A DNA stretch of 24,886 bases from NCBI RefSeq assembly GCF_000003605.2, contig NW_003119139.1, positions 1 to 24,886 on the forward strand, read 5' to 3'. This DNA comes from Saccoglossus kowalevskii (taxonomy: Eukaryota > Hemichordata > Enteropneusta > Harrimaniidae). Positions within the stretch are counted from its first letter, which is position 1. Every line of letters starts with the position of its first letter. A program made the translations under genes and the position numbers. Below, piece after piece: positions 1-24,886 of the stretch. The notes beneath the pieces are model-generated. The model saw only the letters and a list, made by a program, of their open reading frames with translations. It searched no databases and was not told where the DNA came from.

Positions 1-834
1 TGGTACATCGCACAGCAAAGGTAAGTAAATGTGCTCTACTTTAAATAATTATGTCTCACCGAATTAACTTCAAAATGGATTATAGTGGTTTAGGTCACGT
101 AATGTTGTATCACGATTGCTACAGACACAAATATGTGTTTTTTTATTTTTACAGGTAGTTATGTTGGCAGGAAATCAAGTCGCTATATCTACAGCGAGAC
201 ACAGTCGGTTTTATTAGAAGTAATATTTGCAACTACTACGGAGTATCTAAATCGCGACATGCGCAAGCGTATCGCCATAATTACCAACTTATCGGAAAAG
301 TCAATTATGGTAAGTGAGAGCATTATGTATGCACCAAAGTATGTTATAATGTAAGCGAACAGTTTCTTGTTGTTCATTATACAATAATCTATTTTATTCA
401 CTTTTCAGAAGTGGTTTCAGAATCGTCGGAGTCAAAAACGGAGGCAAGAACTGAAAAGAGATGCCGTGTTATATGCTAAGCACCATCAAGCACCAATACA
501 AAAGTTGAAAGAATCGACGACGCGTTTTCCGTCCGTGCGAAGTCGAGGAAAATCAGTGGACACTCGACTTGATGTCCTACCAGCAACGCCTTCCCTCAGG
601 GAATATATTGGTGTTCCACAATCCAGTAGTACACCAAGGCATTGTAGTGATACGAAGATACAAAATTGCAGTACACATTCCAGTGGTATCCTGACAGACG
701 TCTGTCAAAGTGAAATAGAAATATGTAGTACACCTTGTAAAGACGTGTCATCAGATTTGTCATTTAATGGAATTACTGATTTAGATCGTACTCTGTGTCC
801 ATTAGTCATTTGCGAAGCTTCATATTCAGTTTGA
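1..834 (+). CDS. Divergent homeodomain protein, copy 1 (5' partial)
   Basis: Only the last 20 nt of exon 1 (1-20) lie in the window. Intron 1 is 21-154, exon 2 155-309, intron 2 310-408, exon 3 409-834. All visible splice sites are GT-AG and the frame is open to TGA. This is the most diverged copy in coding sequence. Using the numbering of the complete 237-residue product, it has K40T (ACA for AAA), T70A in the helix 1-2 loop, Gly104 to Ser (homeodomain position 54, a base-contacting site in well-studied homeodomains) and R111L just after the homeodomain. It also has S to R and Y to C changes in the tail. Its 3' end (attcagttt before the stop) matches copy 2 only. It looks intact as far as can be seen; whether its DNA specificity differs is inference. 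Confidence 0.8.
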
Positions 835-888
835 GAAAAGCATTTATTCGTGGTTAGTCATTTTAATTTCGTGTACATAATACGTTAT

Positions 889-894
889 AATAAA
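889..894 (+). terminator. Poly(A) signal of homeobox copy 1
   Basis: AATAAA lies 55 nt after the TGA, in an A/T-rich 3' UTR with a second AATAAA-like run just downstream. This is the expected place for Pol II cleavage and polyadenylation, about 130 bp before the tRNA gene. Confidence 0.65.
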
Positions 895-1022
895 ATACAA
901 ATAAAAAATACATATTGTGTATTCAATTATGAGTCAAGATCGAAAGGAACAGTGTGATCTGGTCAAACGTTGTGATGTAAAAAATAAAAAATACCTTGCA
1001 TACGAAGCAGGCGATATGCAGT

Positions 1023-1107
1023 GTCTCCGTGGCGCAACGGATAGCGCGTCGGACTTCTAGTTGAAACAGTTATTCGGAGGCTGTGGGTTCGAATCCCACC
1101 AGAGATG
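1023..1107 (+). tRNA. tRNA-Arg(UCU) with 12-nt intron, unit 1 first copy
   Basis: Folds as a cloverleaf. The acceptor arm is GTCTCCG with CAGAGAT, giving a G1-U72 wobble and a C6-A67 mismatch found among first copies only here. The D stem is GCGC/GCGC, the anticodon stem TCGGA/TTCGG and the T arm GTGGG TTCGAAT CCCAC. The anticodon TCT is followed by A37, then the intron GTTGAAACAGTT, then A38. The T4 tract 3' of the gene (cttctttt) fits Pol III termination. The acceptor mismatch may weaken this copy. Confidence 0.85.
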
Positions 1108-1386
1108 TCTCTTCTTTTAAGTCACGATGGACATGTTTTGTTCAAATTGTCGTCAATAGTCTTAACATATTGGACAGTTGTAGCTCTCCTCGGTACTAAT
1201 AATTAGGAAAGACCGAGACCGTCGACAGAGATTAAAATATTCTGCACGCATTTTGACGGAATGAACCAATATAAAAAAATGGCTACCAATGATATAAAAA
1301 GCCAACTGGTTGTAGCGATACAAGGTGTTTGGTGTTGTGATGTAACAAATAAAAATATCTTGCATATGAAGCAGGCGGTATGCTGT

Positions 1387-1471
1387 GTCTCCGTGGCGCA
1401 ACGGATAGCGCGTCGGACTTCTAGTTGAAACAGTTATTCGGAGGCTGTGGGTTCGAATCCCACCGGAGATG
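1387..1471 (+). tRNA. tRNA-Arg(UCU), unit 1 second copy, intact
   Basis: All stems pair: acceptor GTCTCCG/CGGAGAT with only a G1-U72 wobble. It has anticodon TCT and the 12-nt intron GTTGAAACAGTT between 37 and 38. The B box GGTTCGAATCC matches the consensus, and a T4 tract follows. It lies in the second half of the internal duplication. Confidence 0.92.
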
Positions 1472-2453
1472 GCTCTTCTTTTAAGTCACGATGGACATGT
1501 TTTGTTCAAATTATCGTCAATGGTCTTAACATATTGGACAGTTGTAGCTCTCCTCGGTGCTAATAATTAGAAAGACCGAGACCGTCGACTGAGATTAAAA
1601 TATTCTACACGGATTTTGATGTAATGAACCAAATACAAAAATGGCTACCAATGGTATAAAAAGCCAACTGATTGTAGCGATACTAGGTGTTTGATACGTG
1701 TTCTACACGAGCCTTTGTAAGATCAACCGAAATATAAAAATAATTACCTAATTCCATCAACATACATGTCCTTGCTTATCCCCAACGTCTACATGGAATG
1801 ACGTTGAATGCTCTTTAACATGTTGTTGAAGCACCGTCACTCGGTAAATGTTGGTGAGTTGAAACATAATCAACCGGAACAATCACAGAGTTAGTGAGTT
1901 TTCACGATCCGCGGATTATTAATTAGCATTCCAATTATTAACACATTTGCCAAAAGTTAACACATTTGCCATGATATTAGAAAGCCGGCATTTTTGAAAG
2001 AAAAGCAGTTCTCTATTGGATTGTTTTGTTCAATTTAACGTCAGTGTTCTGTCCGAATTAAACAGCAGTATCTTACCTATGTATCAATAATTAAAGAACA
2101 CCAACGAGAGAAGAGCGTCGGATGAGATTTATAATTCCATACACATTTTGAAATGGTATACTCATTAATAAACATAACAAAATCGCCGCAGCCAGTAGAC
2201 GTTTTTTTTTTGTTTTGTCGAAGCGCCATCACTCGGTGAATACCGGCAAGTTCAATCATCAACAGCATTACACATCCGAGTTCCTGTGTCTTTTCACGTT
2301 ATATGGAGTGTTAATTGGCATAACAACACTGCGAGTTAACACATTTATAGCGCAAGTAAACAGGCGGCATTTTACAGAAGGGGGCGGCAATCCATTGACA
2401 AAGTTTTCTTGAATATCCTTACAAATGCGAAAATTGGTATAGGAATTCGAAAC
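1472..2453 (+). other. Unit 1 spacer: no gene, old internal duplications, candidate regulatory motifs
   Basis: There is no credible ORF or RNA gene. The first part (to about 1694) is the end of the 364-bp duplication. A module at about 1822-2020 (gaagcaccgtcactcggta ... gccggcattttt) recurs in degraded form at about 2214-2400 (gaagcgccatcactcggtg ... gcggcatttta). A degraded third copy of the tRNA 3' flank spans about 2022-2160, sharing tgttttgttcaa, ataatta, cgtcg, gagatt and cacattttga-like blocks in order. A TTAATTAG site is at 1919-1926, and TTAACACATTTGCC occurs twice 19 bp apart just after it. The spacer leads into the next unit's TATA box. Confidence 0.75.
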
Positions 2454-2532: not shown

Positions 2533-3451
2533 ATGGCATTACATATTGACAACACCCATTTTACAGCCAATGTTATGTTGAACTTATTACCGGTGTTAGA
2601 TATTGCTGGTCGGTTTGATTGGAAGAATGTCTGCGGTTACGTAGATGGTAAATCGCACAGCAAAGGTAAGTAAATGTGCTCTACTTTAAATAATTATGTC
2701 TCACCGAATTAACTTCAAAATGGATTATAGTGGTTTAGGTCACGTAATGTTGTATCACGATTGCTACAGACACAAATATGTGTTTTTTTTATTTTTACAG
2801 GTAGTTATGTTGGCAGGAAATCAAGTCGCTATATCTACAGCGAAACACAGTCGGTTTTATTAGAAGTAATATTTACAACTACTACGGAGTATCTAAATCG
2901 CGACATGCGCAAGCGTATCGCCATAATTACCAAATTATCGGAAAAGTCAATTATGGTAAGTGAGAGCATTATGTATGCACCAAAGTATGTTATAATGTAA
3001 GCGAACAGTTTCTTGTTGTTCATTATACAATAATCTATTTTATTCACTTTTCAGAAGTGGTTTCAGAATCGTCGGGGTCAAAAACGGAGGCAAGAACGGA
3101 AAAGAGATGCCGTGTTATATGCTAAGCACCATCAAGCACCAATACAAATGTTGAAAGAATCGACGACGCGTTTTCCGTCCGTGCGAAGTCGAGGAAAATC
3201 AGTGGACACTCGACTTGATGTCCTACCAGCAACGCCTTCCCTCAGTGAATATATTGGTGTTCCACAATCCAGTAGTACAAAATTGCAGTACACATTCCAG
3301 TGGTATCCTGGCAGACGTCTATCAAAGTGAAATAGAAATATGTAGTACACCTTGTAAAGACGTGTCATCAGATTTGTCATTTAATGGAATTACTGATTTA
3401 GATCGTACTCTGTGTCCATTATTCATTTGCGAAGCTTCATATTCAGTTTGA
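2533..3451 (+). pseudogene. Homeodomain gene copy 2, C-terminal frameshift
   Basis: Exon 1 is 2533-2665, intron 1 2666-2800, exon 2 2801-2955, intron 2 2956-3054; exon 3 starts at 3055. Splice sites and the homeodomain are intact. A 29-bp deletion in exon 3, at about 3278 and flanked by TAC direct repeats, shifts the frame. Translation then stops at 3328-3330, giving about 187 residues with an unrelated end instead of 237. The old frame continues to the ancestral TGA at 3449-3451. Asn89 is Lys (AAA), shared only with copy 6, as is the GAA codon for Glu59. A truncated but DNA-binding product remains possible, so pseudogene is a cautious label. The unit is also the shortest, with a single tRNA. 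Confidence 0.75.
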
Positions 3452-3511: not shown

Positions 3512-3638
3512 ATATGAATACAAAATACATATTGTGTATTCAATTATGAGTCAAGATCGAAAGGAACAGTGTGATCTGGTCAAACGTTGTGATGTAAAAA
3601 ATAAAAATACCTTGCATACGAAGCAGGCGATATGCAGT

Positions 3639-3723
3639 GTCTCCGTGGCGCAACGGATAGCGCGTCGGACTTCTAGTTGAAACAGTTATTCGGAGGCTGT
3701 GGGTTCGAATCCCGCCGGAGATG
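3639..3723 (+). tRNA. tRNA-Arg(UCU), unit 2 only copy
   Basis: Intact cloverleaf with the 12-nt intron. The 3' T strand is CCCGC instead of CCCAC, changing the U50-A64 pair to a U-G wobble. This variant is shared only with the single tRNA of unit 6. A T4 tract follows. Confidence 0.9.
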
Positions 3724-4682
3724 GCTCTTCTTTTAGTCACGATGGACATGTTTGTTCAAATTGTCGTCAATAGTCTTAACATATTGGACAGTGTAGCTCT
3801 CTCGGTACTAATAATTAGGAAAGACCGAGACCGTCGACTGAGATTAAAATATTCTACACGCAAATACAAAAATGGCTACTAATGGTATAAAAAGCCAACT
3901 GATTGTAGCGATACTAGGTGTTTGATACGTGTTCTACACGAGCCTTTGTAAGATCAACCGAAATATAAAACTAATTACCTAATTCCATCAACATACATGT
4001 CCTTGCTTATCCCCAACGTCTACATGGAATGACGTTGAATGCTCTTTAACATGTTGTTGAAGCACCGTCACTCGGTAAATGTTGGTGAGTTGAAACATAA
4101 TCAACCAGAACAATCACAGAGTTAGTGAGTTTTCACGATCTGCGGATTATTAATTAGCATTCCAATTATTAACACATTTGCCAAAAGTTAACACATTTGC
4201 CATGATATTAGAAAGCCGGCATTTTAGAAAGAAAAGCAGTTCTCTATTGGCTTGTTTTGTTCAATTTAACGTCAGTCTTCTGTCCGAATTAAACAGCAGT
4301 ATCTTACCTAAGTGTCAATAATTAAAGAACACCAAAGAGAGAAGAGCGTCGGATGAGATTTATAATTCCATACACATTTTGAAATGGTATACTCATTAAT
4401 AAACACAACAAAATCGCCGCAGCCAGTAGACGTTTTTTTTGTTTTGTCGAAGCGCCATCACTCGGTGAATGCCGGCAAGTTCAATCATTAACAGCTTTAC
4501 ACATCCGAGTTCCTGTGTCTTTTCACGTTATATGGAGTGTTAATTGGCATAACAACACTGCGAGTTAACACATTTGTAGCGCAAGTAAACAGACGGCATT
4601 TTACAGAAGGGGGCGGCAATCCATTGACAAAGTTTTCTTGAATATCCTTACAAATGCGAAAATTGGTATAGGAATTCGAAAC
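3724..4682 (+). other. Unit 2 spacer (recombinant, shortened)
   Basis: There is no gene. The start has first-copy diagnostics (ggtactaataattagg, near 3804-3820). From ttctacacg (about 3852) onward it has second-copy diagnostics. One duplication copy was therefore removed by recombination between the two, with the switch between roughly 3820 and 3854. An extra 18 bp is missing right after that point. Several single-base losses cluster at 3731-3808. The rest matches the unit 1 spacer: TTAATTAG, the doubled TTAACACATTTGCC and the two degraded modules. Confidence 0.75.
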
Positions 4683-4761: not shown

Positions 4762-5709
4762 ATGGCATTACATATTGACAACACCCATTTTACAGCCAAT
4801 GTTATGTTGAACATATTACCGGTGTTAGATATTGCTGGTCGGTTTGATTGGAAGAATGTCTGCGGTTACGTAGATGGTAAATCGCACAGCAAAGGTAAGT
4901 AAATGTGCTCTACTTTAAATAATTATGTCTCACCGAATTAACTTCAAAATGGATTATAGTGGTTTAGGTCACGTAATGTTGTATCACGATTGCTACAGAC
5001 ACAAATATGTTTTTTTTTAATTTTTACAGGTAGTTATGTTGGCAGGAAATCAAGTCGCTATATCTACAGCGAGACACAGTCGGTTTTATTAGAAGTAATA
5101 TTTACAACTACTACGGAGTATCTAAATCGCGACATGCGCAAGCGTATCGCCATAATTACCAACTTATCGGAAAAGTCAATTATGGTAAGTGAGAGCATTA
5201 TGTATGCACCAAAGTATGTTATAATGTAAGCGAACAGTTTCTTGTTGTTAATTATACAATAATCTATTTTATTCACTTTTCAGAAGTGGTTTCAGAATCG
5301 TCGGGGACAAAAACGGAGGCAAGAACGGAAAAGAGATGCCGTGTTATATGCTAAGCACCATCAAGCACCAATACAAAAGTTGAAAGAATCGACGACGCGT
5401 TTTCCGTCCGTGCGAAGTAGAGGAAAATCAGTGGACACTCGACTTGATGTCCTACCAGCAACGCCTTCCCTCAGTGAATATATTGGTGTTCCACAATCCA
5501 GTAGTACACCAAGGCATTGTAGTGATACGAAGATACAAAATTGCAGTACACATTCCAGTGGTATCCTGACAGACGTCTATCAAAGTGAAATAGAAATATG
5601 TAGTACACCTTGTAAAGACGTGTCATCAGATTTGTCATTTAATGGAATTACTGATTTAGATCGTACTCTGTGTCCATTAGTCATTTGCGAAGCTTCATAT
5701 TCTGTTTGA
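4762..5709 (+). CDS. Divergent homeodomain protein, copy 3 (intact reference copy)
   Basis: A three-exon gene: exon 1 4762-4894, intron 1 4895-5029, exon 2 5030-5184, intron 2 5185-5283, exon 3 5284-5709. It encodes 237 residues. Residues 1-45 form an unrecognised N-terminus. The homeodomain spans about 50-110, with Arg54 (position 5), Leu65 (16), Phe69 (20), Leu90 (40) and the helix-3 core WFQNRR at 98-103, including Gln50, Asn51 and Arg53. It is 61 residues long because the helix 1-2 loop (TTTTE, 70-74) has one extra residue. Lys at position 47, Gly at 54 and Gln at 55 are atypical. A basic stretch (KRRQERKR, 106-113) follows and could serve nuclear import. The tail is Ser/Thr/Cys-rich with no known domain. 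The intron falls between homeodomain positions 46 and 47, as in many paired-like genes. The likely role is a nuclear DNA-binding regulator; class and targets are unknown. The ATG is the first in frame downstream of the TATA box; an upstream TTG start is unlikely in a eukaryote. Confidence 0.85.
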
Positions 5710-5769: not shown

Positions 5770-5896
5770 ATATAAATAAAAAATACATATTGTGTATTCA
5801 ATTATGAGTCAAGATCGAAAGGAACAATGTGATCTGGTCAAACGTTGTGATGTAAAAAATAAAAATACCTTGCATACGAAGCTGGCGATATGCAGT

Positions 5897-5981
5897 GTCT
5901 CCGTGGCGCAACGGATAGCGCGTCGGACTTCTAGTTGAAACAGTTATTCGGAGGCTGTGGGTTCGAATCCCACCGGAGATG
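5897..5981 (+). tRNA. tRNA-Arg(UCU), unit 3 first copy, intact
   Basis: Fully paired cloverleaf (only G1-U72, U27-G43 and G30-U40 wobbles) with anticodon TCT. In the intron GTTGAAACAGTT, the G third from the 3' end can pair with C32. That is the anticodon-intron pair expected for eukaryotic tRNA splicing. Confidence 0.93.
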
Positions 5982-6256
5982 GCTCTTCTTTTAAGTCACG
6001 ATGGACATGTTTTGTTCAAATTGTCGTCAATAGTCTTAACATATTGGACAGTTGTAGCTCTCCTCGGTACTAATAATTAGGAAAGACCGAGACCGTCGAC
6101 TGAGATTAAAATATTCTGCACGCATTTTGATGGAATGAACCAATATAAAAAATGGCTTCCTATGGTATAAAAAGCCAACTGGTTGTAGCGATACAAGTGT
6201 TTGGTGTTGTGATGTTACAATAAAAATATCTGCATATGAAGCAGGCGGTATGCTGT

Positions 6257-6340
6257 GTCTCATGGCGCAACGGATAGCTCGTCGGACTTCTAGTTGAAAA
6301 AGTTATTCGGAGGCTGTGGGTTCGAATCCCACCGGAGATG
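6257..6340 (+). pseudogene. tRNA-Arg(UCU) pseudogene, unit 3 second copy
   Basis: One C is missing from the acceptor 5' strand (gtctcatgg for gtctccatgg) and the D stem reads GCTC for GCGC. The intron is the GTTGAAAAAGTT variant. The acceptor stem cannot form fully. The lost C lies in a run of single-base losses (6196-6262), so part of the damage may be a consensus error. Confidence 0.8.
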
Positions 6341-7321
6341 GTTCTGCTTTTAAGTCACGATGGATTTGTTTTGTTAAAATCGTCGTCAATAGTCTTAACA
6401 TATTGGACAGTTATAGCTCTCCTCGGTGCTAATAATTAGAAAGACCGAGACCGTCGACTGAGATTAAAATATTCTACACGGATTTTGATGTAATGAACCA
6501 AATACAAAAATGGCTACTAATGGTATAAAAAGCCAACTGATTGTAGCGATATTAGGTGTTTGATATGTGTTCTACACGAGCCTTTGTAAGATCAACCGAA
6601 ATATAAAAATAATTACCTAATTCCATCAACATACATGTCCTTGCTTATCCCCAACGTCTACATGGAATGACGTTGAATGCTCTTTAACATGTTATTGAAG
6701 CACCGTCACTCGACAAATGTTGGTGAGTTGAAACATAATCAACCAGAACAATCACAGAGTTAGTGAGTTTTCACGACCCGCGGATTATTAATTAGCATTC
6801 CAATTGTTAACACATTTGCCAATAGTTAACAAATTTGCCACGATATTAGAAAGCCGGCATTTTTGAAAGAAAAGCAGTTCTCTATTGGCTTGTTTTGTTC
6901 AATTTAACGTCAGTCTTCTGTCCGAATTAAACAGCAGTATCTTACCTAAGTGTCAATAATTAAAGAACACCAAAGAGAGAAGAGCGTCGGATGAGATTTA
7001 TAATTCCATACACATTTTGAAATGGTATACTCATTAATAAACACAACAAAATCGCCGCAGCCAGTAGACGTTTTTTTTTGTTTTGTCGAAGCGCCATCAC
7101 TCGGTGAATGCCGGCAAGTTCAATCATTAACAGCTTTACACATCCGAGTTCCTGTGTCTTTTCACGTTATATGGAGTGTTAATTGGCATAACAACACTGC
7201 CAGTTAACACATTTGTAGCGCAAGTAAACAGCCGGCATTTTACAGAAGGGGGCGGCAATCCATTGACAAAGTTTTCTTGAATATCCTTACAAATGCGAAA
7301 ATTGGTATAGGAATTCGAAAC
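6341..7321 (+). other. Unit 3 spacer, no gene
   Basis: Same organisation as the unit 1 spacer. The first motif near 6805 reads gttaacacatttgcc and the second is mutated to gttaacaaatttgcc. Before the TATA box it reads cactgccagttaac, shared with the spacer before copy 7. Nothing coding was seen. Confidence 0.75.
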
Positions 7322-7400: not shown

Positions 7401-8347
7401 ATGGCATTACATATTGACAACACCCATTTTACAGCCAATGTTATGTTGAACATATTACCGGTGTTAGATATTGCTGGTCGGTTTGATTGGAAGAATGTCT
7501 GCGGTTACGTAGATGGTAAATCGCACAGCAAAGGTAAGTAAATGTGCTCTACTTTAAATAATTATGTCTCACCGAATTAACTTCAAAATGGATTATAGTG
7601 GTTTAGGTCACGTAATGTTGTATCACGATTGCTACAGACACAAATATGTATTTTTTTATTTTTACAGGTAGTTATGTTGGCAGGAAATCAAGTCGCTATA
7701 TCTACAGCGAGACACAGTCGGTTTTATTAGAAGTAATATTTACAACTACTACGGAGTATCTAAATCGCGACATGCGCAAGCGTATCGCCATAATTACCAA
7801 CTTATCGGAAAAGTCAATTATGGTAAGTGAGAGCATTATGTATGCACCAAAGTATGTTATAATGTAAGCGAACAGTTTCTTGTTGTTCATTATACAATAA
7901 TCTATTTTATTCACTTTTCAGAAGTGGTTTCAGAATCGTCGGGGTCAAAAACGGAGGCAAGAACGGAAAAGAGATGCCGTGTTATATGCTAAGCACCATC
8001 AAGCACCAATACAAAAGTTGAAAGAATCGACGACGCGTTTTCCGTCCGTGCGAAGTCGAGGAAAATCAGTGGACACTCGACTTGATGTCCTACCAGCAAC
8101 GCCTTCCCTCAGTGAATATGTTGGTGTTCCACAATCCAGTAGTACACCAAGGCATTGTAGTGATACGAAGATACAAAATTGCAGTACACATTCCAGTGGT
8201 ATCCTGACAGACGTCTATCAAAGTGAAATAGAAATATGTAGTACACCTTGTAAAGACGTGTCATCAGATTTGTCATTTAATGGAATTACTGATTTAGATC
8301 GTACTCTGTGTTCATTAGTCATTTGCGAAGCTTCATATTCTGTTTGA
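7401..8347 (+). CDS. Divergent homeodomain protein, copy 4 (intact)
   Basis: Exons 7401-7533, 7668-7822 and 7922-8347; introns 7534-7667 and 7823-7921. The reading frame is open for 237 residues and all splice sites are canonical. The homeodomain is identical to copy 3. Differences are confined to the tail: Val for Ile in the sequence before GVPQ (shared only with copy 7) and Pro to Ser near the C-terminus (CSLVI for CPLVI, found only here). Leu18 is Ile, as in copies 3 and 7. Coding, TATA context and 3' flank all tie this copy closely to copy 7. Confidence 0.85.
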
Positions 8348-8407: not shown

Positions 8408-8535
8408 ATATAAATAAAAAAATACATATTGTGTATTCAATTATGAGTCAAGATCGAAAGGAACAGTGTGATCTGGTCAAACGTTGTGATGTAAAAAATA
8501 AAAATACCTTGCATACGAAGCAGGCGATATGCAGT

Positions 8536-8620
8536 GTCTCCGTGGTGCAACGGATAGCGCGTCGGACTTCTAGTTGAAACAGTTATTCGGAGGCTGTGGG
8601 TTCGAATCCCACCGGAGATG
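8536..8620 (+). tRNA. tRNA-Arg(UCU), unit 4 first copy
   Basis: Cloverleaf with one change: the D stem 5' strand is GTGC for GCGC, giving a U-G wobble that still pairs. Intron, anticodon, B box and T4 terminator are unchanged. Probably functional. Confidence 0.88.
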
Positions 8621-8900
8621 GCTCTTCTTTTAAGTCACGATGGACATGTTTTGTTCAAATTGTCGTCAATAGTCATAACATATTGGACAGTTGTAGCTCT
8701 CCTCGGTACTAATAATTAGGAAAGACCGAGACCGTCGACTGAGATTAAAATATTCTGCACGCATTTTGATGGAATGAACCAATATAAAAAAAATGGCTAC
8801 CAATGGTATAAAAAGCCAACTGGTTGTAGCGATACAAGGTGTTTGGTGTTGTGATGTAACAAATAAAAATATCTTGCATATGAAGCAGGCGGTATGCTGT

Positions 8901-8985
8901 GTCTCCGTGGCGCAACGGATAGCGCGTCGGACTTCTAGTTGAAACAGTTATTCGGAGGCTGTGGGTTCGAATCCCACCGGAGATG
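8901..8985 (+). tRNA. tRNA-Arg(UCU), unit 4 second copy, intact
   Basis: Sequence identical to the intact second copies of units 1 and 7. All stems pair and the 12-nt intron is GTTGAAACAGTT. Confidence 0.92.
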
Positions 8986-9964
8986 GCTCTTCTTTTAAGT
9001 CACGATGGACATGTTTTGTTCAAATTATCGTCAATGGTCTTAACATATTGGACAGTTGTAGCTCTCCTCGGTGCTAATAATTAGAAAGACCGAGACCGTC
9101 GACTGAGATTAAAATATTCTACACGGATTTTGATGTAATGAACCAAATACAAAAATGGCTACTAATGGTATAAAAAGCCAACAGATTGTAGCGATACTAG
9201 GTGTTTGATACGTGTTCTACACGAGCCTTTGTAAGATCAACCGAAATATAAAAATAATTACCTAATTCCATCAACATACATGTCCTTGCTTATCCCCAAC
9301 GTCTACATGGAATGACGTTGAATGCTCTTTAACATGTTGTTGAAGCACCGTCACTCGGTAAATGTTGGTGAGTTGAAACATAATCAACCGGAACAATCAC
9401 AGAGTTAGTGAGTTTTCACGATCCGCGGATTATTAATTAGCATTCCAATTATTAACACATTTGCCAAAAGTTAACACATTTGCCATGATATTAGAAAGCC
9501 GGCATTTTTGAAAGAAAAGCAGTTCTCTATTGGCTTGTTTTGTTCAATTTAACCTCAGTGTTCTGTCCGAATTAAACAGCAGTATCTTACCTAAGTGTCA
9601 ATAATTAAAGAACACCAAATAGAGAAGAGCGTCGGATGAGATTTATAATTCCATACACATTTTGAAATGGTATACTCATTTTTAAACACAACAAAATCGC
9701 CGCAGCCAGTACACGTTTTTTTGTTTTGTCGAAGCGCCATCACTCGGTGAATGCCGGCAAGTTCAATAATTAACAGCTTTACACATCCGAGTTCCTGTGT
9801 CTTTTCACCTTATATGGAGTGTTAATTGGCATAACAACACTGCGAGTTAACACATTTGTAGCGCAAGTAAACAGACGGTATTTTACAGAAGGGGGCGGCA
9901 ATCCATTGACAAAGTGTTCTTGAATATCCTTACAAATGCGAAAATTGGTATAGGAATTCGAAAC
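8986..9964 (+). other. Unit 4 spacer, no gene
   Basis: Organised as in unit 1: end of the 364-bp duplication, module A, TTAATTAG, doubled TTAACACATTTGCC, degraded tRNA-flank copy, module B. Small differences include catttttaaacac for cattaataaacac near 9678. No ORF of note. Confidence 0.75.
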
Positions 9965-11051: not shown

Positions 11052-11178
11052 ATATAAATACAAAATACATATTGTGTATTCAATTATGAGTCAAGATCGA
11101 AAGGAACAGTGTGATCTGGTCAAACGTTGTGATGTAAAAAATAAAAATACCTTGCATACGAAGCAGGCGATATGCAGT

Positions 11179-13821: not shown

Positions 13822-13906
13822 GTCTCCGTGGCGCAACGGATAGCGCGTCGGACTTCTAGTTGAAACAGTTATTCGGAGGCTGTGGGTTCGAATCCCGCCG
13901 GAGATG
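13822..13906 (+). tRNA. tRNA-Arg(UCU), unit 6 only copy
   Basis: Intact cloverleaf with intron. The 3' T strand CCCGC (U50-G64 wobble) is shared only with unit 2. A longer T-run (cttcttttt) follows. Confidence 0.9.
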
Positions 13907-14886
13907 GCTCTTCTTTTTAGTCACGATGGACATGTTTTGTTCAAATTGTCCTCAATGGTCTTAACATATTGGACAGTTGTAGCTCTCCTCGGTGCTAATA
14001 ATTAGAAAGACCGTGACCGTCGACTGAGATTAAAATATTCTACACGGATTTTGATGTAATGAACCAAATACAAAAATGGCTACTAATGGTATAAAAAGCC
14101 AACTGATTGTAGCGATACTAGGTGTTTGATACGTGTTCTACACGAGCCTTTGTAAGATCAACCGAAATATAAAAATAATTACCTAATTCCATCAACATAC
14201 ATGTCCTTGCTTATCCCCAACGTCTACATGGAATGACGTTGAATGCTCTTTAACATGTTGTTGAAGCACCGTCACTCGGTAAATGTTGGTGAGTTGAAAC
14301 ATAATCAACCAGAACAATCACAGAGTTAGTGAGTTTTCACGATCCGCGGATTATTAATTAGCATTCCAATTATTAACACATTTGCCAAAAGTTAACACAT
14401 TTGCCATGATATTAGAAAGCCGGCATTTTTGAAAGAAAAGCAGTTCTCTATTGGCTTGTTTTGTTCAATTTAACGTCAGTCTTCTGTCCGAATTAAACAG
14501 CAGTATCTTACCTAAGTGTCAATAATTAAAGAACACCAAAGAGAGAAGAGCGTCGGATGAGATTTATAATTCCATACACATTTTGAAATGGTATACTCAT
14601 TAATAAACACAACAAAATCGCCGCAGCCAGTAGACGTTTTTTTTGTTTTGTCGAAGCGCCATCACTCGGTGAATGCCGGCAAGTTCAATCATTAACAGCT
14701 TTACACATCCGAGTTCCTGTGTCTTTTCACGTTATATGGAGTGTTAATTGGCATAACAACACTGCCAGTTAACACATTTGTAGCGCAAGTAAACAGACGG
14801 CATTTTACAGAAGGGGGCGGCAATCCATTGACAAAGTTTTCTTGAATATCCTTACAAATGCGAAAATTGGTATAGGAATTCGAAAC
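13907..14886 (+). other. Unit 6 spacer (recombinant, shortened)
   Basis: There is no gene. Second-copy diagnostics (caatggtc, ggtgctaataattag) begin by about 13955. The copy was therefore lost by recombination within or just after the tRNA gene, at a different breakpoint from unit 2. The rest is the usual spacer with TTAATTAG and the doubled TTAACACATTTGCC. The end (cactgccagttaac) matches the spacer before copy 4. Confidence 0.75.
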
Positions 14887-14965: not shown

Positions 14966-15913
14966 ATGGCATTACATATTGACAACACCCATTTTACAGC
15001 CAATGTTATGTTGAACATATTACCGGTGTTAGATATTGCTGGTCGGTTTGATTGGAAGAATGTCTGCGGTTACGTAGATGGTAAATCGCACAGCAAAGGT
15101 AAGTAAATGTGCTCTACTTTAAATAATTATGTCTCACCGAATTAACTTCAAAATGGATTATAGTGGTTTAGGTCACGTAATGTTGTATCACGATTGCTAC
15201 AGACACAAATATGTGTTTTTTTATTTTTACAGGTAGTTATGTTGGCAGGAAATCAAGTCGCTATATCTACAGCGAGACACAGTCGGTTTTATTAGAAGTA
15301 ATATTTACAACTACTACGGAGTATCTAAATCGCGACATGCGCCAAGCGTATCGCCATAATTACCAACTTATCGGAAAAGTCAATTATGGTAAGTGAGAGC
15401 ATTATGTATGCACCAAAGTATGTTATAATGTAAGCGAACAGTTTCTTGTTGTTCATTATACAATAATCTATTTTATTCACTTTTCAGAAGTGGTTTCAGA
15501 ATCGTCGGGGTCAAAAACGGCGGCAAGAACGGAAAAGAGATGCCGTGTTATATGCTAAGCACCATCAAGCACCAATACAAAAGTTGAAAGAATCGACGAC
15601 GCGTTTTCCGTCCGTGCGAAGTCGAGGAAAATCAGTGGACACTCGACTTGATGTCCTACCAGCAACGCCTTCCCTCAGTGAATATGTTGGTGTTCCACAA
15701 TCCAGTAGTACACCAAGGCATTGTAGTGATACGAAGATACAAAATTGCAGTACACATTCCAGTGGTATCCTGACAGACGTCTATCAAAGTGAAATAGAAA
15801 TATGTAGTACACCTTGTAAAGACGTGTCATCAGATTTGTCATTTAATGGAATTACTGATTTAGATCGTACTCTGTGTCCATTAGTCATTTGCGAAGCTTC
15901 ATATTCTGTTTGA
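14966..15913 (+). pseudogene. Homeodomain gene copy 7, frameshift inside the homeodomain
   Basis: Exon 1 is 14966-15098, exon 2 15233-15388 (156 nt, one more than its sisters), exon 3 15488-15913. An extra C at about 15342 (gcgccaagcg for gcgcaagcg) shifts the frame after Arg81, at the start of helix 2. With normal splicing the shifted frame meets TAA at 15556-15558. The product would be about 119 residues and would lack the WFQNRR recognition helix. Exon 3 itself is still open in the old frame and carries the Val variant shared with copy 4. The insertion next to a C could be a consensus error, but as it stands this copy cannot make the homeodomain. Confidence 0.78.
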
Positions 15914-15973: not shown

Positions 15974-16101
15974 ATATAAATAAAAAAATACATATTGTGT
16001 ATTCAATTATGAGTCAAGATCGAAAGGAACAGTGTGATCTGGTCAAACGTTGTGATGTAAAAAATAAAAATACCTTGCATACGAAGCAGGCGATATGCAG
16101 T

Positions 16102-16186
16102 GTCTCCGTGGCGCAACGGATAGCGCGTCGGACTTCTAGTTGAAACAGTTATTCGGAGGCTGTGGGTTCGAATCCCACCGGAGATG
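16102..16186 (+). tRNA. tRNA-Arg(UCU), unit 7 first copy, intact
   Basis: Identical to the intact first copies of units 3 and 5, with a fully paired cloverleaf and a 12-nt intron. Confidence 0.93.
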
Positions 16187-16466
16187 GCTCTTCTTTTAAG
16201 TCACGATGGACATGTTTTGTTCAAATTGTCGTCAATAGTCTTAACATATTGGACAGTTGTAGCTCTCCTCGGTACTAATAATTAGGAAAGACCGAGACCG
16301 TCGACTGAGATTAAAATATTCTGCACGCATTTTGATGGAATGAACCAATATAAAAAAAATGGCTACCAATGGTATAAAAAGCCAACTGGTTGTAGCGATA
16401 CAAGGTGTTTGGTGTTGTGATGTAACAAATAAAAATATCTTCCATATGAAGCAGGCGGTATGCTGT

Positions 16467-16551
16467 GTCTCCGTGGCGCAACGGATAGCGCGTCGGACTT
16501 CTAGTTGAAACAGTTATTCGGAGGCTGTGGGTTCGAATCCCACCGGAGATG
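16467..16551 (+). tRNA. tRNA-Arg(UCU), unit 7 second copy, intact
   Basis: Sound second copy, identical in sequence to those of units 1 and 4. Confidence 0.92.
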
Positions 16552-17528
16552 GCTCTTCTTTTAAGTCACGATGGACATGTTTTGTTCAAATTATCGTCAA
16601 TGGTCTTAACATATTGGACAGTTGTAGCTCTCCTCGGTGCTAATAATTAGAAAGACCGAGACCGTCGACTGAGATTAAAATATTCTACACGGATTTTGAT
16701 GTAATGAACCAAATACAAAAATGGCTACCAATGTTATAAAAAGCCAACTGATTGTAGCGATACTAGGTGTTTGATACGTGTTCTACACGAGCCTTTGTTA
16801 GATCAACCGAAATATAAAAATAATTACCTAATTCCATCAACATACATGTCCTTGCTTATCCCCAACGTCTACATGGAATGACGTTGAATGCTCTTTAACA
16901 TGTTGTTGAAGCACCGTCACTCGGTAAATGTTGGTGAGTTGAAACATAATCAACCAGAACAATCACAGAGTTAGTGAGTTTTCACGATCCGCGGATTATT
17001 AATTAGCATTCCAATTGTTAACACATTTGCCAAAAGTTAACACATTTGCCATGATATTAGAAAGCCGGCATTTTTGAAAGAAAAGCAGTTCTCTATTGGA
17101 GTCTTGTTCAATTTAACGTCAGTGTTCTGTCCGAATTAAACAGCAGTATCTTACTTAAGTGTCAATAATTAAAGAACACCAAAGAGAGAAGAGCGTCGGA
17201 TGAGATTTATAATTCCATACACATTTTGAAATGGTATACTCATTAATAAACACAACAAAATCGCCGCAGCCAGTAGACGTTTTTTTTGTTTTGTCGAAGC
17301 GCCATCACTCGGTGAATGCCGGCAAGTTCAATCATTAACAGCTTTACACATCCGAGTTCCTGTGTCTTTTCACGTTATATGGAGTGTTAATTGGCATAAC
17401 AACACTGCGAGTTAACACATTTGTAGCGCAAGTAAACAGACGGCATTTTACAGAAGGAGGCGGCAATCCATTGACAAAGTTTTCTTGAATATCCTTACAA
17501 ATGCGAAAATTGGTATAGGATTCGAAAC
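16552..17528 (+). other. Unit 7 spacer, no gene
   Basis: Standard spacer. Near 17098 the usual ttgttttgttcaa reads gtcttgttcaa, and one base is lost from ggaattcgaa just before the TATA box. This loss joins an upstream ATG (17485) to the exon-1 frame, see copy 8. TTAATTAG and the doubled TTAACACATTTGCC are present. Confidence 0.72.
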
Positions 17529-17607: not shown

Positions 17608-18555
17608 ATGGCATTACATATTGACAACACCCATTTTACAGCCAATGTTATGTTGAACTTATTACCGGTGTTAGATATTGCTGGTCGGTTTGATTGGAAG
17701 AATGTCTGCGGTTACGTAGATGGTAAATCGCACAGCAAAGGTAAGTAAATGTGCTCTACTTTAAATAATTATGTCTCACTGAATTAACTTCAAAATGGAT
17801 TATAGTGGTTTAGGTCACGTAATGTTGTATCACGATTGCTACAGACACAAATATGTGTTTTTTTTATTTTTACAGGTAGTTATGTTGGCAGGAAATCAAG
17901 TCGCTATATCTACAGCGAGACACAGTCGGTTTTATTAGAAGTAATATTTACAACTACTACGGAGTATCTAAATCGCGACATGCGCAAGCGTATCGCCATA
18001 AGTACCAACTTATCGGAAAAGTCAATTATGGTAAGTGAGAGCATTATGTGTGCACCAAAGTATGTTATAATGTAAGCGAACAGTTTCTTGTTGTTCATTA
18101 TACAATAATCTATTTTATTCACTTTTCAGAAGTGGTTTCAAAATCGTCGGGGTCAAAAACGGAGGCAAGAACGGAAAAGAGATGCCGTGTTATATGCTAA
18201 GCACCATCAAGCACCAATACAAAAGTTGAAAGAATCGACGACGCGTTTTCCGTCCGTGCGAAGTCGAGGAAAATCAGTGGACACTCGACTTGATGTCCTA
18301 CCAGCAACGCCTTCCCTCAGTGAATATATTGGTGTTCCACAATCCAGTAGTACACCAAGGCATTGTAGTGATACGAAGATACAAAATTGCAGTACACATT
18401 CCAGTGGTATCCTGACAGACGTCTATCAAAGTGAAATAGAAATATGTAGTACACCTTGTAAAGACGTGTCATCAGATTTGTCATTTAATGGAATTACTGA
18501 TTTAGATCGTACTCTGTGTCCATTAGTCATTTGCGAAGCTTCATATTCTGTTTGA
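17608..18555 (+). CDS. Divergent homeodomain protein, copy 8 (intact)
   Basis: Exons 17608-17740, 17876-18030 and 18130-18555; introns 17741-17875 and 18031-18129. Open for 237 residues with canonical splice sites. One homeodomain change is visible: Ile87 to Ser (AGT for ATT), in helix 2 just before the turn. This is a polar replacement in a segment normally hydrophobic, so its effect on folding is uncertain. The helix-3 Gln100 codon is CAA rather than CAG (silent). A one-base deletion upstream opens the frame back to an ATG at 17485. I keep the start at 17608 because that upstream ATG precedes the TATA box and is not in frame in other units. Confidence 0.82.
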
Positions 18556-18615: not shown

Positions 18616-18742
18616 ATATAAATAAAAAATACATATTGTGTATTCAATTATGAGTCACGATCGAAAGGAACAGTGTGATCTGGTCAAACGTTGTGATGTA
18701 AAAAATAAAAATACCTTGCATACGAAGCTGGCGATATGCAGT

Positions 18743-18827
18743 GTCTCCGTGGCGCAACGGATAGCGCGTCGGACTTCTAGTTGAAACAGTTATTCGGAGG
18801 CTGTGGGTTCGAATCACACCGGAGATG
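18743..18827 (+). tRNA. tRNA-Arg(UCU), unit 8 first copy, T-stem mismatch
   Basis: The cloverleaf is complete except that the 3' T strand is CACAC for CCCAC. This gives a G52-A62 mismatch and alters the last position of the B box (GGTTCGAATCA). Transcription and stability may be reduced. Confidence 0.8.
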
Positions 18828-19108
18828 GCTCTTCTTTTAAGTCACGATGGACATGTTTTGTTCAAATTGTCGTCAATAGTCTTAACATATTGGACAGTTG
18901 TAGCTCTCCTCGGTACTAATAATTAGGAAAGACCGAGACCTTCGACTGAGATTAAAATATTCTGCACGCATTTTGATGGAATGAACCAATATAAAAAAAA
19001 ATGGCTTCCAATGGTATAAAAAGCCAACTGGTTGTAGCGATACAAGGTGTTTGGTGTTGTGATGTAACAAATAAAAATATCTTGCATATGAAGCAGGCGG
19101 TATGCTGT

Positions 19109-19193
19109 GTCTCCATGGCGCAACGGATAGCGCATCGGACTTCTAGTTGAAAAAGTTATTCGGAGGCTATGGGTTCGAATCCCACCGGAGATG
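19109..19193 (+). pseudogene. tRNA-Arg(UCU) pseudogene, unit 8 second copy
   Basis: Full length but has A7 (A7-C66 mismatch), A26 for G26 (gcgcatcgg) and A49-C65 in the T stem. The intron is GTTGAAAAAGTT. This is the decayed second-copy type also seen in units 5, 9 and 10. Confidence 0.72.
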
Positions 19194-20159
19194 CTTCTTC
19201 TTTTAAGTCGCGATGGATTTGTTTTGTTAAAATCGTCGTCAATGGTCTTAACATATTGGACAGTTATAGCTCTCCTCGGTGCTAATAATTAGAAAGACCG
19301 AGACCGTCGACTGAGATTAAAATATTCTACACGGATTTTGATGTAATGAACCAAATACAAAAATGGCTACTAATGGTATAAAAAGCCAACTGATTGTAGC
19401 GATACTAGGTGTTTGATACGTGTTCTACACGAGCCTTTGTAAGATCAACCGAAATATAAAAATAATTACCTAATTCCATCAACATACATGTCCTTGCTTA
19501 TCCCCAACGTCTACATGGAATGACGTTGAATGCTCTTTAACATGTTGTTGAAGCACCGTCACTCGGTAAATGTTGGTGAGTTGAAACATAATCAACCGGA
19601 CAATCACAGAGTTAGTGGAGTTTTCACGATCCGCGGATTATATAGCATCAAATGTTACACATTTGCAAAGTTAACACATTTGCCATGATATAGAAAGCCG
19701 GCATTTTGAAAGAAAAGCAGTTCTCTATTGGATGTTTGTCAATTTAACGTCAGTGTCTGTCCGAATTAAACATCAGTATTTTATCTAAGTGTCAATAATT
19801 AAAGAACACCAAATAGAGAAGAGCGTCGGATGAGATTTATAATTCCATACACATTTGGAAATGGTACACTCATTAATAAACACAACAAAAATCGCCGCAG
19901 CCAGTATACGTTTTTTTGTTTTGTCGAAGCGCCATCACTCGGTGAATGCCGGCAAGTTCAATCATTAACAGCTTTACACATCCGAGTTCCAGTGTCTTTT
20001 CACGTTATATGGAGTGTTAATTGGCATAACAACACTGCGAGTTAACACATTTGTAGCACAAGTAAACAGCCGGCATTTTACAGAAGGGGGCGGCAATCCA
20101 TTGACAAAGTTTTCTTGAATATCCTTACAAATGCGAAAATTGGTATAGGAATTCGAAAC
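19194..20159 (+). other. Unit 8 spacer with a cluster of single-base losses
   Basis: Standard spacer content, but between about 19596 and 19760 many single bases are missing, mostly from doubled letters or short runs. For example, TTAATTAG is collapsed and the first TTAACACATTTGCC reads gttacacatttgcaaag. The second motif copy is intact. This looks more like local consensus error than natural decay. No gene. Confidence 0.7.
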
Positions 20160-20238: not shown

Positions 20239-21251
20239 ATGGCATTACATATTGACAACACCCATTTTACAGCCAATGCTATGTTGAACTTATTACCGGT
20301 GTTAGATATTGCTGGTCGGTTTGATTGGAAGAATGTCTGCGGTTACGTAGATGGTAAATCGCACAGCAAAGGTAAGTAAATGTGCTCTACTTTAAATAAT
20401 TATGTCTCACCGAATTAACTTCAAAATGGATTACAGTGGTTTAGGTCACGTAATGTTGTATCACGATTGCTACAGACACAAATATGTTTTTTTTTATTTT
20501 TACAGGTAGTTATATTGGCAGGAAATCAAGTCGCTATATCTACAGCGAGACACAGTCGGTTTTATTAGAAGTAATATTTACAACTACTACGGAGTATCTA
20601 AATCGCGACATGCGCAAGCGTATCGCCATAATTACCAACTTATCGGAAAAGTCAATTATGGTAAGTGAGAGCATTATGTATGCACCAAAGTATGTTATAA
20701 TGTAAGCGAACAGTTTCTTGTTGTTCATTATACAATAATCTATTTTATTCACTTTTCAGAAGTGGTTTCAGAATCGTCGGGGTCCAAAACGGAGGCAAGA
20801 ACGGAAAAGAGATGCCGTGTTGTATGCTAAGCACCATCAAGCACCAATACAAAAGTTGAAAGAATCGACGACGCGTTTTCCGTCCGTGCGAAGTCGAGGA
20901 AAATCAGTGGACACTCGACTTGATGTCCTACCAGCAACGCCTTCCCTCAGTGAATATATTGGTGTTCCACAATCCAGTAGTACACCAAGGCATTGTAGTG
21001 ATACGAAGATACAAAATTGCAGTACACATTCCAGTGGTATCCTGACAGACGTCTATCAAAGTGAAATAGAAATATGTAGTACACCTTGTAAAGACGTGTC
21101 ATCAGATTTGTCATTTAATGGAATTACTGATTTAGATCGTACTCTGTGTCCATTAGTCATTTGCGAAGCTTCATATTCTGTTAGAGAAAAGCATTTATTC
21201 GTGGTTAGTCATTTTAATTTCGTGTACATAATACGTTATAATAAAATATAA
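20239..21251 (+). CDS. Divergent homeodomain protein, copy 9 (stop lost, extended tail)
   Basis: Exons 20239-20371, 20506-20660 and 20760-21251; introns 20372-20505 and 20661-20759. The usual TGA is AGA (21183-21185). The frame runs 22 codons further to TAA at 21249-21251, predicting 259 residues. The new stop lies just past the AATAAA (21240-21245), so it should still be in the mRNA if cleavage occurs the usual 10-30 nt downstream. The homeodomain has Gln105 to Pro (position 55) right after WFQNRRG, which could kink the end of helix 3. V14A and V48I are milder changes. It may be a drifting copy or a variant; the sequence alone does not decide. Confidence 0.75.
21240..21245 (+). terminator. 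Poly(A) signal of homeobox copy 9
   Basis: AATAAA at the standard place. Because the stop codon is lost, it falls inside the extended reading frame, 3 nt before the new TAA. Confidence 0.6.
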
Positions 21252-21372
21252 ATACAAAATACATATTGTGTATTCAATTATGAGTCAAGATCGAAAGGAA
21301 CAGTGTGATCTGGTCAAACGTTGTGATGTAACAAATAAAAATACCTTGCATACGAAGTTGGCCATATGCAGT

Positions 21373-21457
21373 GTCTCCGTGGCGCAACGGATAGCGCGTC
21401 GGACTTCTAGTTGAAACAGTTATTCGGAGGCTGTGGTTTCGAATCCCACCGGAGATG
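21373..21457 (+). tRNA. tRNA-Arg(UCU), unit 9 first copy, T-stem mismatch
   Basis: Complete except G53 to T (gtggtttcgaat), which breaks the conserved G53-C61 pair closing the T loop and changes the B box. Probably impaired. Confidence 0.75.
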
Positions 21458-21737
21458 GCTCTTCTTTTAAGTCACGATGGACATGTTTTGTTCAAATTGT
21501 CGTCAATAGTCTTAACATATTGGACAGTTGTAGCTCTCCTCGGTACTAATAATTAGGAAAGACCGAGACCTTCGACTGAGATTAAAATATTCTGCACGCA
21601 TTTTGATGGAATGAACCAATATAAAAAAAATGGCTTCCAATGGTATAAAAAGCCAACTGGTTGTAGCGATACAAGGTGTTTGGTGTTGTGATGTAACAAA
21701 TAAAAATATCTTGCATATGAAGTAGGCGGTATGCTGT

Positions 21738-21822
21738 GTCTCCATGGCGCAACGGATAGCGTGTCGGACTTCTAGTTGAAAAAGTTATTCGGAGGCTGTG
21801 GGTTCGAATCCCACCCAAGATG
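21738..21822 (+). pseudogene. tRNA-Arg(UCU) pseudogene, unit 9 second copy
   Basis: The acceptor 3' strand is CCAAGAT for CGGAGAT. With A7 on the 5' strand, the stem is broken at three positions. The D stem has a U25 wobble. This is the most decayed tRNA copy in the window. Confidence 0.85.
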
Positions 21823-22806: not shown

Positions 22807-22879
22807 TCAACCAAAACATACCACATGTGTATCATTGCTACACGCTTTCTCGTCCCATGCGTATCGTATAAAGAATACT

Positions 22880-23825
22880 ATGGCATTACATATTGACAAC
22901 ACCCATTTTACAGCCAATGTTATGTTGAACTTATTACCGGTGTTAGATATTGCTGGTCGGTTTGATTGGAAGAATGTCTGCGGTTACGTAGATGGTAAAT
23001 CGCACAGCAAAGGTAAGTAAATGTGCTCTACTTTAAATAATTATGTCTCACCGAATTAACTTCAAAATGGATTATAGTGGTTTAGGTCACGTAATGTTGT
23101 ATCACGATTGCTACAGACACAAATATGTGTTTTTTATCTTTACAGGTAGGTATGTTGGCAGGAAATCAAGTCGCTATATCTACAGCGAGACACAGTCGGT
23201 TTTATTAGAAGTAATATTTACAACTACTACGGAGTATCTAAATCGCGACATGCGCAAGCGTATCGCCATAATTACCAACTTATCGGAAAAGTCAATTATG
23301 GTAAGTGAGAGCATTATGTATGCACCAAAGTATGTTATAATGTAAGCGAACAGTTTCTTGTTGTTCATTATACAATAATCTATTTTATTCACTTTTCAGA
23401 AGTGGTTTCAGAATCGTCGGGGTCAAAAACGGAGGCAAGAACGGAAAAGAGATGCCGTGTTATATGCTAAGCACCATCAAGCACCAATACAAAAGTTGAA
23501 AGAATCGACGACGCGTTTTCCGTCCGTGCGAAGTCGAGGAAAATCAGTGGACACTCGACTTGATGTCCTACCAGCAACGCCTTCCCTCAGTGAATATATT
23601 GGTGTTCCACAATCCAGTAGTACACCAAGGCATTGTAGTGATACGAAGATACAAAATTGCAGTACACATTCCAGTGGTATCCTGACAGACGTCTATCAAA
23701 GTGAAATAGAAATATGTAGTACACCTTGTAAAGACGTGTCATCAGATTTGTCATTTAATGGAATTACTGATTTAGATCGTACTCTGTGTCCATTAGTCAT
23801 TTGCGAAGCTTCATATTCTGTTTGA
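22880..23825 (+). CDS. Divergent homeodomain protein, copy 10 (intact)
   Basis: Exons 23146-23300 (exon 2) and 23400-23825 (exon 3) follow exon 1 at 22880-23012; introns 23013-23145 and 23301-23399. Open for 237 residues. Ser46, the first full codon of exon 2, is Arg (AGG), four residues before the homeodomain. The intron-1 polypyrimidine tract is interrupted by a C (ttttttatctttacag) and is the shortest in the array, but the AG acceptor is kept. The homeodomain is otherwise as in copy 3, so this is a likely functional copy. Confidence 0.85.
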
Positions 23826-23879
23826 GAAAAGCATTTATTCGTGGTTAGTCATTTTAATTTCGTGTACATAATACGTTAT

Positions 23880-23885
23880 AATAAA
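23880..23885 (+). terminator. Poly(A) signal of homeobox copy 10
   Basis: AATAAA 55 nt after the TGA. Confidence 0.65.
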
Positions 23886-24012
23886 ATATGAATAAAAAAT
23901 ACATATTGTGTATTCAATTATGAGTCAAGATCGAAAGGAACAGTGTGATCTGGTCAAACGTTGTGATGTAAAAAATAAAAATACCTTGCATACGAAGCTG
24001 GCGATATGCAGT

Positions 24013-24097
24013 GTCTCCGTGGCGCAACGGATAGCGCGTCGGACTTCTAGTTGAAACAGTTATTCGGAGGCTGTGGGTTCGAATCCCACCGGAGATG
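24013..24097 (+). tRNA. tRNA-Arg(UCU), unit 10 first copy, intact
   Basis: Identical to the intact first copies of units 3, 5 and 7. Its 3' flank reads cttctttcaag, so the usual T4 is broken to TTT; Pol III may read on to a later T-run. Confidence 0.9.
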
Positions 24098-24377
24098 GCT
24101 CTTCTTTCAAGTCACGATGGACATGTTTTGTTCAAATTGTCGTCAATAGTCTTAACATATTGGACAGTTGTAGCTCTCCTCGGTAGTAATAATTAGGAAA
24201 GACCGAGACCTTCGACTGAGATTAAAATATTCTGCACGCATTTTGATGGAATGAACCAATATAAAAAAAATGGCTTCCAATGGTATAAAAAGCCAACTGG
24301 TTGTAGCGATACAAGGTGTTTGGTGTTGTGATGTAACAAATAAAAATATCTTGCATATGAAGTAGGCGGTATGCTGT

Positions 24378-24462
24378 GTCTCCATGGCGCAACGGATAGC
24401 GCGTCGGACTTCTAGTTGAAAAAGTTATTCGGAGGCTGTGGGTTCGAATCCCACCGGAGATG
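24378..24462 (+). tRNA. tRNA-Arg(UCU), unit 10 second copy, one acceptor mismatch
   Basis: Differs from the intact form by A7 (A7-C66 mismatch) and the GTTGAAAAAGTT intron; all other stems pair. The G third from the intron's 3' end is kept. It could be functional or an early stage of decay, as it belongs to the same lineage as the broken second copies of units 5, 8 and 9. Confidence 0.7.
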
Positions 24463-24886
24463 CTTCTACTTTTAAGTCACGATGGATTTGTTTTGTTAAA
24501 ATCGTCGTCAATGGTCTTAACATATTGGACAGTTATAGCTCTCCTCGGTGCTAATAATTAGAAAGACCGAGACCGTCGACTGAGATTTGAATATTCTACA
24601 CGGATTTTGATGTAATGAACCAAATACAAAAATGGCTACTAATGGTATAAAAAGCCAACTGATTGTAGCGATACTAGGTGTTTGCTATGTGTTCTACACG
24701 AGCCTTTGTAAGATCAACCGAAATATAAAAATAATTACCTAATTCCATCAACATACATGTCCTTGCTTATCCCCAACGTCTACATGGAATGACGTTGAAT
24801 GCTCTTTAACATGTTATTGAAGCACCGTCACACGGTAAATGTTGGTGAGTTGAAACATAATCAACCGGAACAATCACAGTGTTAGT
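24463..24886 (+). other. Unit 10 spacer, cut by the window end
   Basis: Holds the end of the 364-bp duplication and the start of module A, as in unit 9. The window ends before TTAATTAG. No gene. Confidence 0.75.

Follow-up and report, generated by a model that had tools for sequence, protein, structure and literature searches.

A homeobox gene and tRNA-Arg(UCU) genes in a probable protein-coding macrosatellite of the hemichordate Saccoglossus kowalevskii

Introduction

Among the systems closest to the locus described here, the human D4Z4 array is built of 3.3-kb units with 71% G+C, and its gene DUX4 encodes two homeodomains, the frame being located in one exon of a retrogene (PMC12376486; this and the following reports are cited for the parts of their text that were available). 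Rabbit LEUTX has 27 gene copies, 14 of which are putatively functional, and mouse Obox has 66 highly divergent loci (PMC8208926). In Lepidoptera, the Hox cluster contains four divergent Shx genes, which are flanked by pb and zen (PMC4207634), and a tRNA tandem repeat at human 1q23.3 has 7.3-kb units, 9-43 per allele (PMC4041453). In this study, a window of 24,886 nucleotides from the hemichordate Saccoglossus kowalevskii (contig NW_003119139.1, hereafter C1193) was analysed; it consists of a tandem array in which a homeobox gene is combined with genes for tRNA-Arg(UCU).

The array resembles D4Z4/DUX4 in that a whole homeobox coding frame is present per kilobase-scale tandem unit (mostly 2.3-2.6 kb here and 3.3 kb there). 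However, its unit includes tRNA genes, and because it has a single homeodomain, introns in the coding sequence (three coding exons), and 38% rather than 71% G+C, it does not belong to the D4Z4/DUX4 family (PMC12376486). Like the ETCHbox arrays LEUTX and Obox, it is a large tandem set of divergent homeobox genes in which many copies are broken; the ETCHbox genes, in contrast, are divergent CRX duplicates of eutherian mammals, whereas the present units are about 98% alike, and tRNA genes are not mentioned in the available part of that source (PMC8208926). A lineage-specific array of divergent homeobox genes is likewise found in Shx, but with four divergent genes instead of dozens of near-identical copies (PMC4207634). 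The 1q23.3 repeat also carries tRNA genes within large tandem units, although its units are longer and GC-rich and the available text makes no mention of a homeobox gene (PMC4041453). No report of a homeobox gene and tRNA genes combined in one tandem repeat was found in the open-licence PubMed Central (PMC) literature.

Overall, the array is probably a protein-coding homeobox macrosatellite that is homogenised by array-wide recombination; its build is D4Z4/DUX4-like, but the gene is unrelated to DUX4 and has introns, and the unit has gained an RNA polymerase III (Pol III) gene.

Extent and structure of the array

The window is identical with contig C1193, one of 4,830 contigs in a genome assembly of 572 Mb. 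A preliminary description, made from the letters of the window alone, had proposed that a homeobox gene and tRNA-Arg genes were amplified as one unit, in at least ten near-identical head-to-tail copies with no end in sight. The composition of the unit is borne out by Pfam, Rfam, ARAGORN, and the tandem units themselves, and ten gene copies are indeed present on C1193, head to tail and all on the plus strand, with an exon-3 to exon-3 distance of 2.23-2.65 kb. The array does reach both ends of the window; however, since the window is an entire contig, the absence of an end reflects a limit of the assembly, and an edge is seen elsewhere, at C1554:575,931.

Together with C3970, C3844, C2584, C3211, and C4681, C1193 belongs to six array-only contigs with a summed length of 154.8 kb, in which the sole non-array stretch is 46 bp of C3844 and the orientation of the units is uniform within each contig. 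Full-length gene copies in these contigs number 56, there are 13 partial pieces, counted as nine loci, and an additional cut copy is located at the extreme end of C1554 (576,650 bp, the last 2,650 bp of which were read). At least 66 gene copies, partial ones included, are present in the assembly, which is a count in the assembly and not per haploid genome, as collapsed or allelic contigs are possible. The edge on C1554 lies inside intron 1 of a copy and is preceded by 1.93 kb without similarity to the array. Since C1554 passes from non-array DNA into the array, the array is chromosomal; as in a macrosatellite, many near-identical kilobase-scale tandem units, 55 of them complete from gene to gene, are carried on a chromosome. 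The second edge was not found with a spacer query (68 candidates, 40 of them scored), for which all 42 listed matches are within the array contigs. An assembly artefact was judged unlikely, because the 43 intact gene copies encode 40 distinct proteins, the edge meets non-array DNA, and the best match between array stretches over 1.5 kb, the overlap length examined, is 99.3% (within C3970).

The complete units fall mostly into two length classes of about 2.28 kb (in most cases one tRNA) and 2.64 kb (in most cases two tRNAs), which differ by a duplicated module of about 360 bp bearing the tRNA. One tRNA-like copy is present in 28 units, two in 25, four in one, and none in one. Divergence between units is about 2%, with a mean distance of 2.19% for neighbours and 2.23% between contigs, and it is independent of separation among 49 regular units (the alignment omits six of the 55, which are of odd length or structure). 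This points to array-wide mixing and away from stepwise duplication of neighbours. A four-unit higher-order repeat, prompted by the one-tRNA units 2 and 6, the closest whole-unit pair (0.73%), was rejected because similarity rises at no separation over these 49 units.

The homeobox gene

The gene has three coding exons of 133, 155, and 426 nt, separated by GT-AG introns of about 135 and 99 nt, and its predicted product has 237 residues. Pfam Homeodomain (PF00046) matches one stretch, residues 51-108, with 42.0 bits (cut-off 22.9) and an E-value of 8.1e-11. In this match 58 residues are aligned on 57 profile positions, leaving one extra residue, which by manual alignment is read as part of the loop between helices 1 and 2, and the WFQNRR motif is found in the translations. 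The 60 shown of 120 PDB matches are all homeodomain or homeobox proteins by name; the best ones mix Hox13, PRH, GSX2, OTX2, and DUX4 at similar scores, and CRX/OTX is not favoured over Hox13. No close single-copy paralogue was found in the same genome, the next homeobox matches being 30-42% identical. The viral contigs gave no match either; this search did not extend to prokaryote genome contigs or to the collections of phage, plasmid, and E. coli sequences. Five weak homeobox matches on one strand of C132, spread over about 300 kb (27235-331144), may represent its Hox cluster.

In the window, five of the ten gene copies (3, 4, 6, 8, and 10) are intact, and across the six contigs the frame, start, stop, and splice sites are kept in 43 of the 56 full-length copies. 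This proportion omits the nine partial loci, four of which are cut by contig ends; when the other five, damaged and not cut, are added, the intact fraction is 43/61. Two of these five lack the start codon and have an in-frame deletion of 39 nt, and in three the gene end was not found by the script. The deletion and the start loss are common to both copies of the pair (C2584:13523 and C3844:3331, the second in reverse-complement coordinates), and a third copy, cut by a contig end, has the same gap. Damaged copies have formed a sub-lineage that has spread in turn.

The tRNA-Arg(UCU) genes

The tRNA-Arg(TCT) genes have a 12-nt intron, and one or two are located between successive homeobox genes of the window. 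There, 18 copies were found by fuzzy match, 17 at the Rfam gathering score (the best with 54.5 bits), 16 by ARAGORN in bacterial mode, and 14 by ARAGORN in intron mode. Feature counts over the six contigs take in 95 of 96 tRNA-like copies: among these full copies, TCT is at the expected place in 92, the A box is intact in 88 and the B box in 84, and 85 have a T run no more than 25 nt behind the tRNA. In cloverleaf, TCT anticodon, A and B boxes, and terminator, the array copies agree with tRNA-Arg(UCU) genes. One sequence is common to 34 of the 95 over the 83 nt compared.

A search of the whole genome with the 5' half of the tRNA (up to two mismatches) gave 96 matches, of which 95 fall within the array and the remaining one is at C4526:122,375, and the 3' half (up to three mismatches) gave 94, with 93 in the array and one on C4526. 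Since the two halves on C4526 are at the same 37-nt offset, this outside tRNA appears to be full length with an intron of equal length. At the mismatch limits used, C4526:122375-122450 is the only match to the array tRNA-Arg type outside the array, and it is possibly the source of the array tRNA. In the genome, this sequence type of tRNA-Arg(UCU) is almost confined to the array; the search did not extend to tRNA-Arg(UCU) genes of greater divergence.

Variation among copies

Diversity at nonsynonymous sites (piN) is 0.0125 and at synonymous sites (piS) 0.0138 over the 56 full-length copies, which gives a piN/piS of 0.91, and exons (diversity, pi, 1.29%) are as variable as introns (1.19%). Indels are found at nine of 714 exonic and six of 234 intronic sites (p 0.22), when length changes of the intron-1 poly-T are left out. 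Copy-to-copy variation is near neutral. Purifying selection common to most copies, as would mark an array kept for dosage, is not supported, and selection on the protein of the average copy is weak, if any.

In the 49-unit alignment, diversity is 1.0-1.8% in exons and introns, 1.4% in the 100 bp upstream of the start codon, and 2.4-3.5% in parts of the spacer, so that the gene body and core promoter have about half the variability of the spacer. Segregating sites number 242 of 838 in the spacer against 176 of 947 in the gene (p 3e-7) and 37 of 233 in the introns (p 5e-5); exons and introns do not differ (p 0.24). The first tRNA has a diversity of 1.6%, with 2.4-2.5% in its flanks, and the second tRNA 3.8%. 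Since the introns are as quiet as the exons, protein selection is not the main cause of the quiet gene body; it would be accounted for either by exchange biased towards the transcribed part or by one gene haplotype that has spread recently.

The observed/expected ratio of CpG is 1.19 in the six array contigs and 0.52 in the 1.93-kb flank. C>T or G>A variants among copies are not enriched at CpG (32 at 204 sites and 122 at 708). This pattern suggests that the array is unmethylated or young, although one short flank is too little background for a conclusion.

Preferred and alternative explanations

In the explanation preferred here, each unit would carry a predicted RNA polymerase II gene, whose product is a divergent homeodomain protein, together with one or two Pol III genes for tRNA-Arg(UCU). 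Unequal exchange and gene conversion over the whole array would spread and homogenise the units, and a minority of working homeobox copies would suffice, so that most copies would drift; the tRNA genes travel along with the homeobox gene. By analogy with DUX4 only, the protein may be a fast-evolving factor of the germ line or early embryo. Several observations weigh against this explanation. Only two nonsense changes are seen among 124 variants where 6.4 are expected given the mutation types (Poisson 0.046), and the homeodomain has 16 changes, one of them nonsense, against 21.7 missense changes expected. These deficits hint at some purifying selection; the difference in variants between the homeodomain and the rest of the protein is not significant (p 0.17). 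The quiet gene body could alternatively result from the recent spread of a single haplotype or from a lower mutation rate, and some array contigs may represent a second haplotype. In addition, the 86 calls of ARAGORN in intron mode over the six contigs include three Lys, three Pyl, and one undetermined, besides 79 Arg(TCT). If the copies were kept because extra homeobox product was an advantage, as it might be in a sex-linked or germline context, then the 43 intact copies of 56, the deficit of nonsense changes, and a spacer that varies more than the gene body and core promoter would all be accounted for. However, piN/piS is 0.91 and exons vary like introns, indels are not significantly less frequent in exons than in introns, and 40 distinct proteins are found among the 43 intact copies; selection for protein dosage is unlikely.

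Selection for the dose of tRNA-Arg(UCU), with the homeobox gene as a passenger, appears quite improbable. While the array holds 95/96 and 93/94 of the genomic matches to the two tRNA halves, the first tRNA is less diverse than its flanks, and 34 of 95 full copies are identical over the 83 nt compared, the second tRNAs vary as the spacer does (3.8% and 3.5%) and several of them score low. Moreover, the homeobox gene is about as quiet as the first tRNA, and diverged tRNA-Arg(UCU) genes beyond the pattern limits were not searched for, so that the main supply may come from outside the array. It is also improbable that one macrosatellite sets two doses, the copy number of the transcription factor and that of one tRNA-Arg(UCU) type, almost all genes of which are in the array; changes in array length would then tie the regulator to AGA decoding, with the Pol III genes as boundaries that keep the units open. 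A purely passive satellite, in which the gene is dead cargo and no copy is functional, agrees with the near-neutral variation and the well-mixed units. It is very doubtful all the same, as a well-formed homeodomain, nonsense changes below expectation, and 43 of 56 full-length copies with frame, start, stop, and splice sites kept argue against it, although the array may be too young for decay. Besides a sex-linked or B-chromosome setting, the preliminary description had offered both dosage selection and satellite-like growth as causes. The former finds no support for the protein in a piN/piS of 0.91, and the latter, when combined with homogenisation, fits best with the distances and variability over the 49 units. 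As precedents it had named Shx and Rhox; D4Z4/DUX4, LEUTX, Obox, and the 1q23.3 repeat, which are structurally nearer, had been missed.

Feature coordinates and other genomic observations

Table 1. Homeobox gene copies, tRNA genes, and repeats of the window, with the programs that called the tRNA genes.
Feature	Position	Strand	Called by
Gene copy 1, cut by window start, open in the part present	1..834 (exon 1 end 1-20, exon 2 155-309, exon 3 409-834)	+	
Gene copy 2, frameshifted by 29-nt deletion in exon 3	2533..3451	+	
Gene copy 3, intact, 237-residue homeodomain protein	4762..5709 (exon 1 4762-4894, exon 2 5030-5184, exon 3 5284-5709)	+	
Gene copy 4, intact	7401..8347	+	
Gene copy 5, open frame, intron-1 donor broken (GT>AT)	10044..10991	+	
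Gene copy 6, intact	12687..13634	+	
Gene copy 7, exon 2 (homeobox) with +1 frameshift	14966..15913	+	
Gene copy 8, intact	17608..18555	+	
Gene copy 9, without stop codon, frame continues to 21251	20239..21185	+	
Gene copy 10, intact	22880..23825	+	
tRNA-Arg(TCT), 12-nt intron, first after gene 1	1022..1109	+	ARAGORN (bacterial and intron modes), Rfam
tRNA-Arg(TCT), second, unit 1	1386..1473	+	ARAGORN, Rfam
tRNA-Arg(TCT), sole copy of unit 2	3638..3725	+	ARAGORN, Rfam
tRNA-Arg(TCT), first after gene 3	5896..5983	+	ARAGORN, Rfam
tRNA-Arg-like, degenerate, second after gene 3	6255..6342	+	Missed by ARAGORN, and by Rfam at gathering score
tRNA-Arg(TCT), first after gene 4	8535..8622	+	ARAGORN, Rfam
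tRNA-Arg(TCT), second after gene 4	8900..8987	+	ARAGORN, Rfam
tRNA-Arg(TCT), first after gene 5	11178..11265	+	ARAGORN, Rfam
tRNA-Arg(TCT), second after gene 5, low score (31.2 bits)	11542..11627	+	ARAGORN, Rfam
tRNA-Arg(TCT), sole copy of unit 6	13821..13908	+	ARAGORN, Rfam
tRNA-Arg(TCT), first after gene 7	16101..16188	+	ARAGORN, Rfam
tRNA-Arg(TCT), second after gene 7	16466..16553	+	ARAGORN, Rfam
tRNA-Arg(TCT), first after gene 8	18742..18829	+	ARAGORN, Rfam
tRNA-Arg(TCT), second after gene 8	19109..19194	+	ARAGORN, Rfam
tRNA-Arg(TCT), first after gene 9	21372..21459	+	ARAGORN, Rfam
tRNA-Arg-like, second after gene 9, low score (34.8 bits)	21738..21822	+	Rfam; no ARAGORN call
tRNA-Arg(TCT), first after gene 10	24012..24099	+	ARAGORN, Rfam
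tRNA-Arg(TCT), second after gene 10	24378..24463	+	ARAGORN, Rfam
Two ~360-bp tRNA-bearing modules of the reference unit, 90-94% alike, ungapped	5904..6551	+	
Spacer part with weaker, diverged direct repeat (40 nt, 78%)	6805..7241	+	

As judged by eye and not from a search, the flank of the array (C1554:574001-575930) contains a short terminal exon-like frame (GTGIMVGLLHSRNVVGVDINEKC...) that resembles the terminal part of a methyltransferase-type protein. A stretch around positions 575400-575600 of the same contig is, again by eye, minisatellite-like. Elsewhere in the assembly, C4830 (17,037 bp) is the probable mitochondrial genome; a 600-nt piece of cox1 reads as an animal COI with TGA as tryptophan, and it has ATA where isoleucine is presumably expected.

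Implications

If confirmed, the array would be an independent case of a non-DUX4 homeobox gene within a macrosatellite, one in which the gene is intron-bearing and not a retrogene and a tRNA gene is built into the unit. It would also be a large gene expansion without a signature of dosage selection. The array would provide a second system for asking why divergent homeobox genes enter tandem arrays, and it would also allow one to ask whether Pol III genes aid the growth or the openness of such an array.

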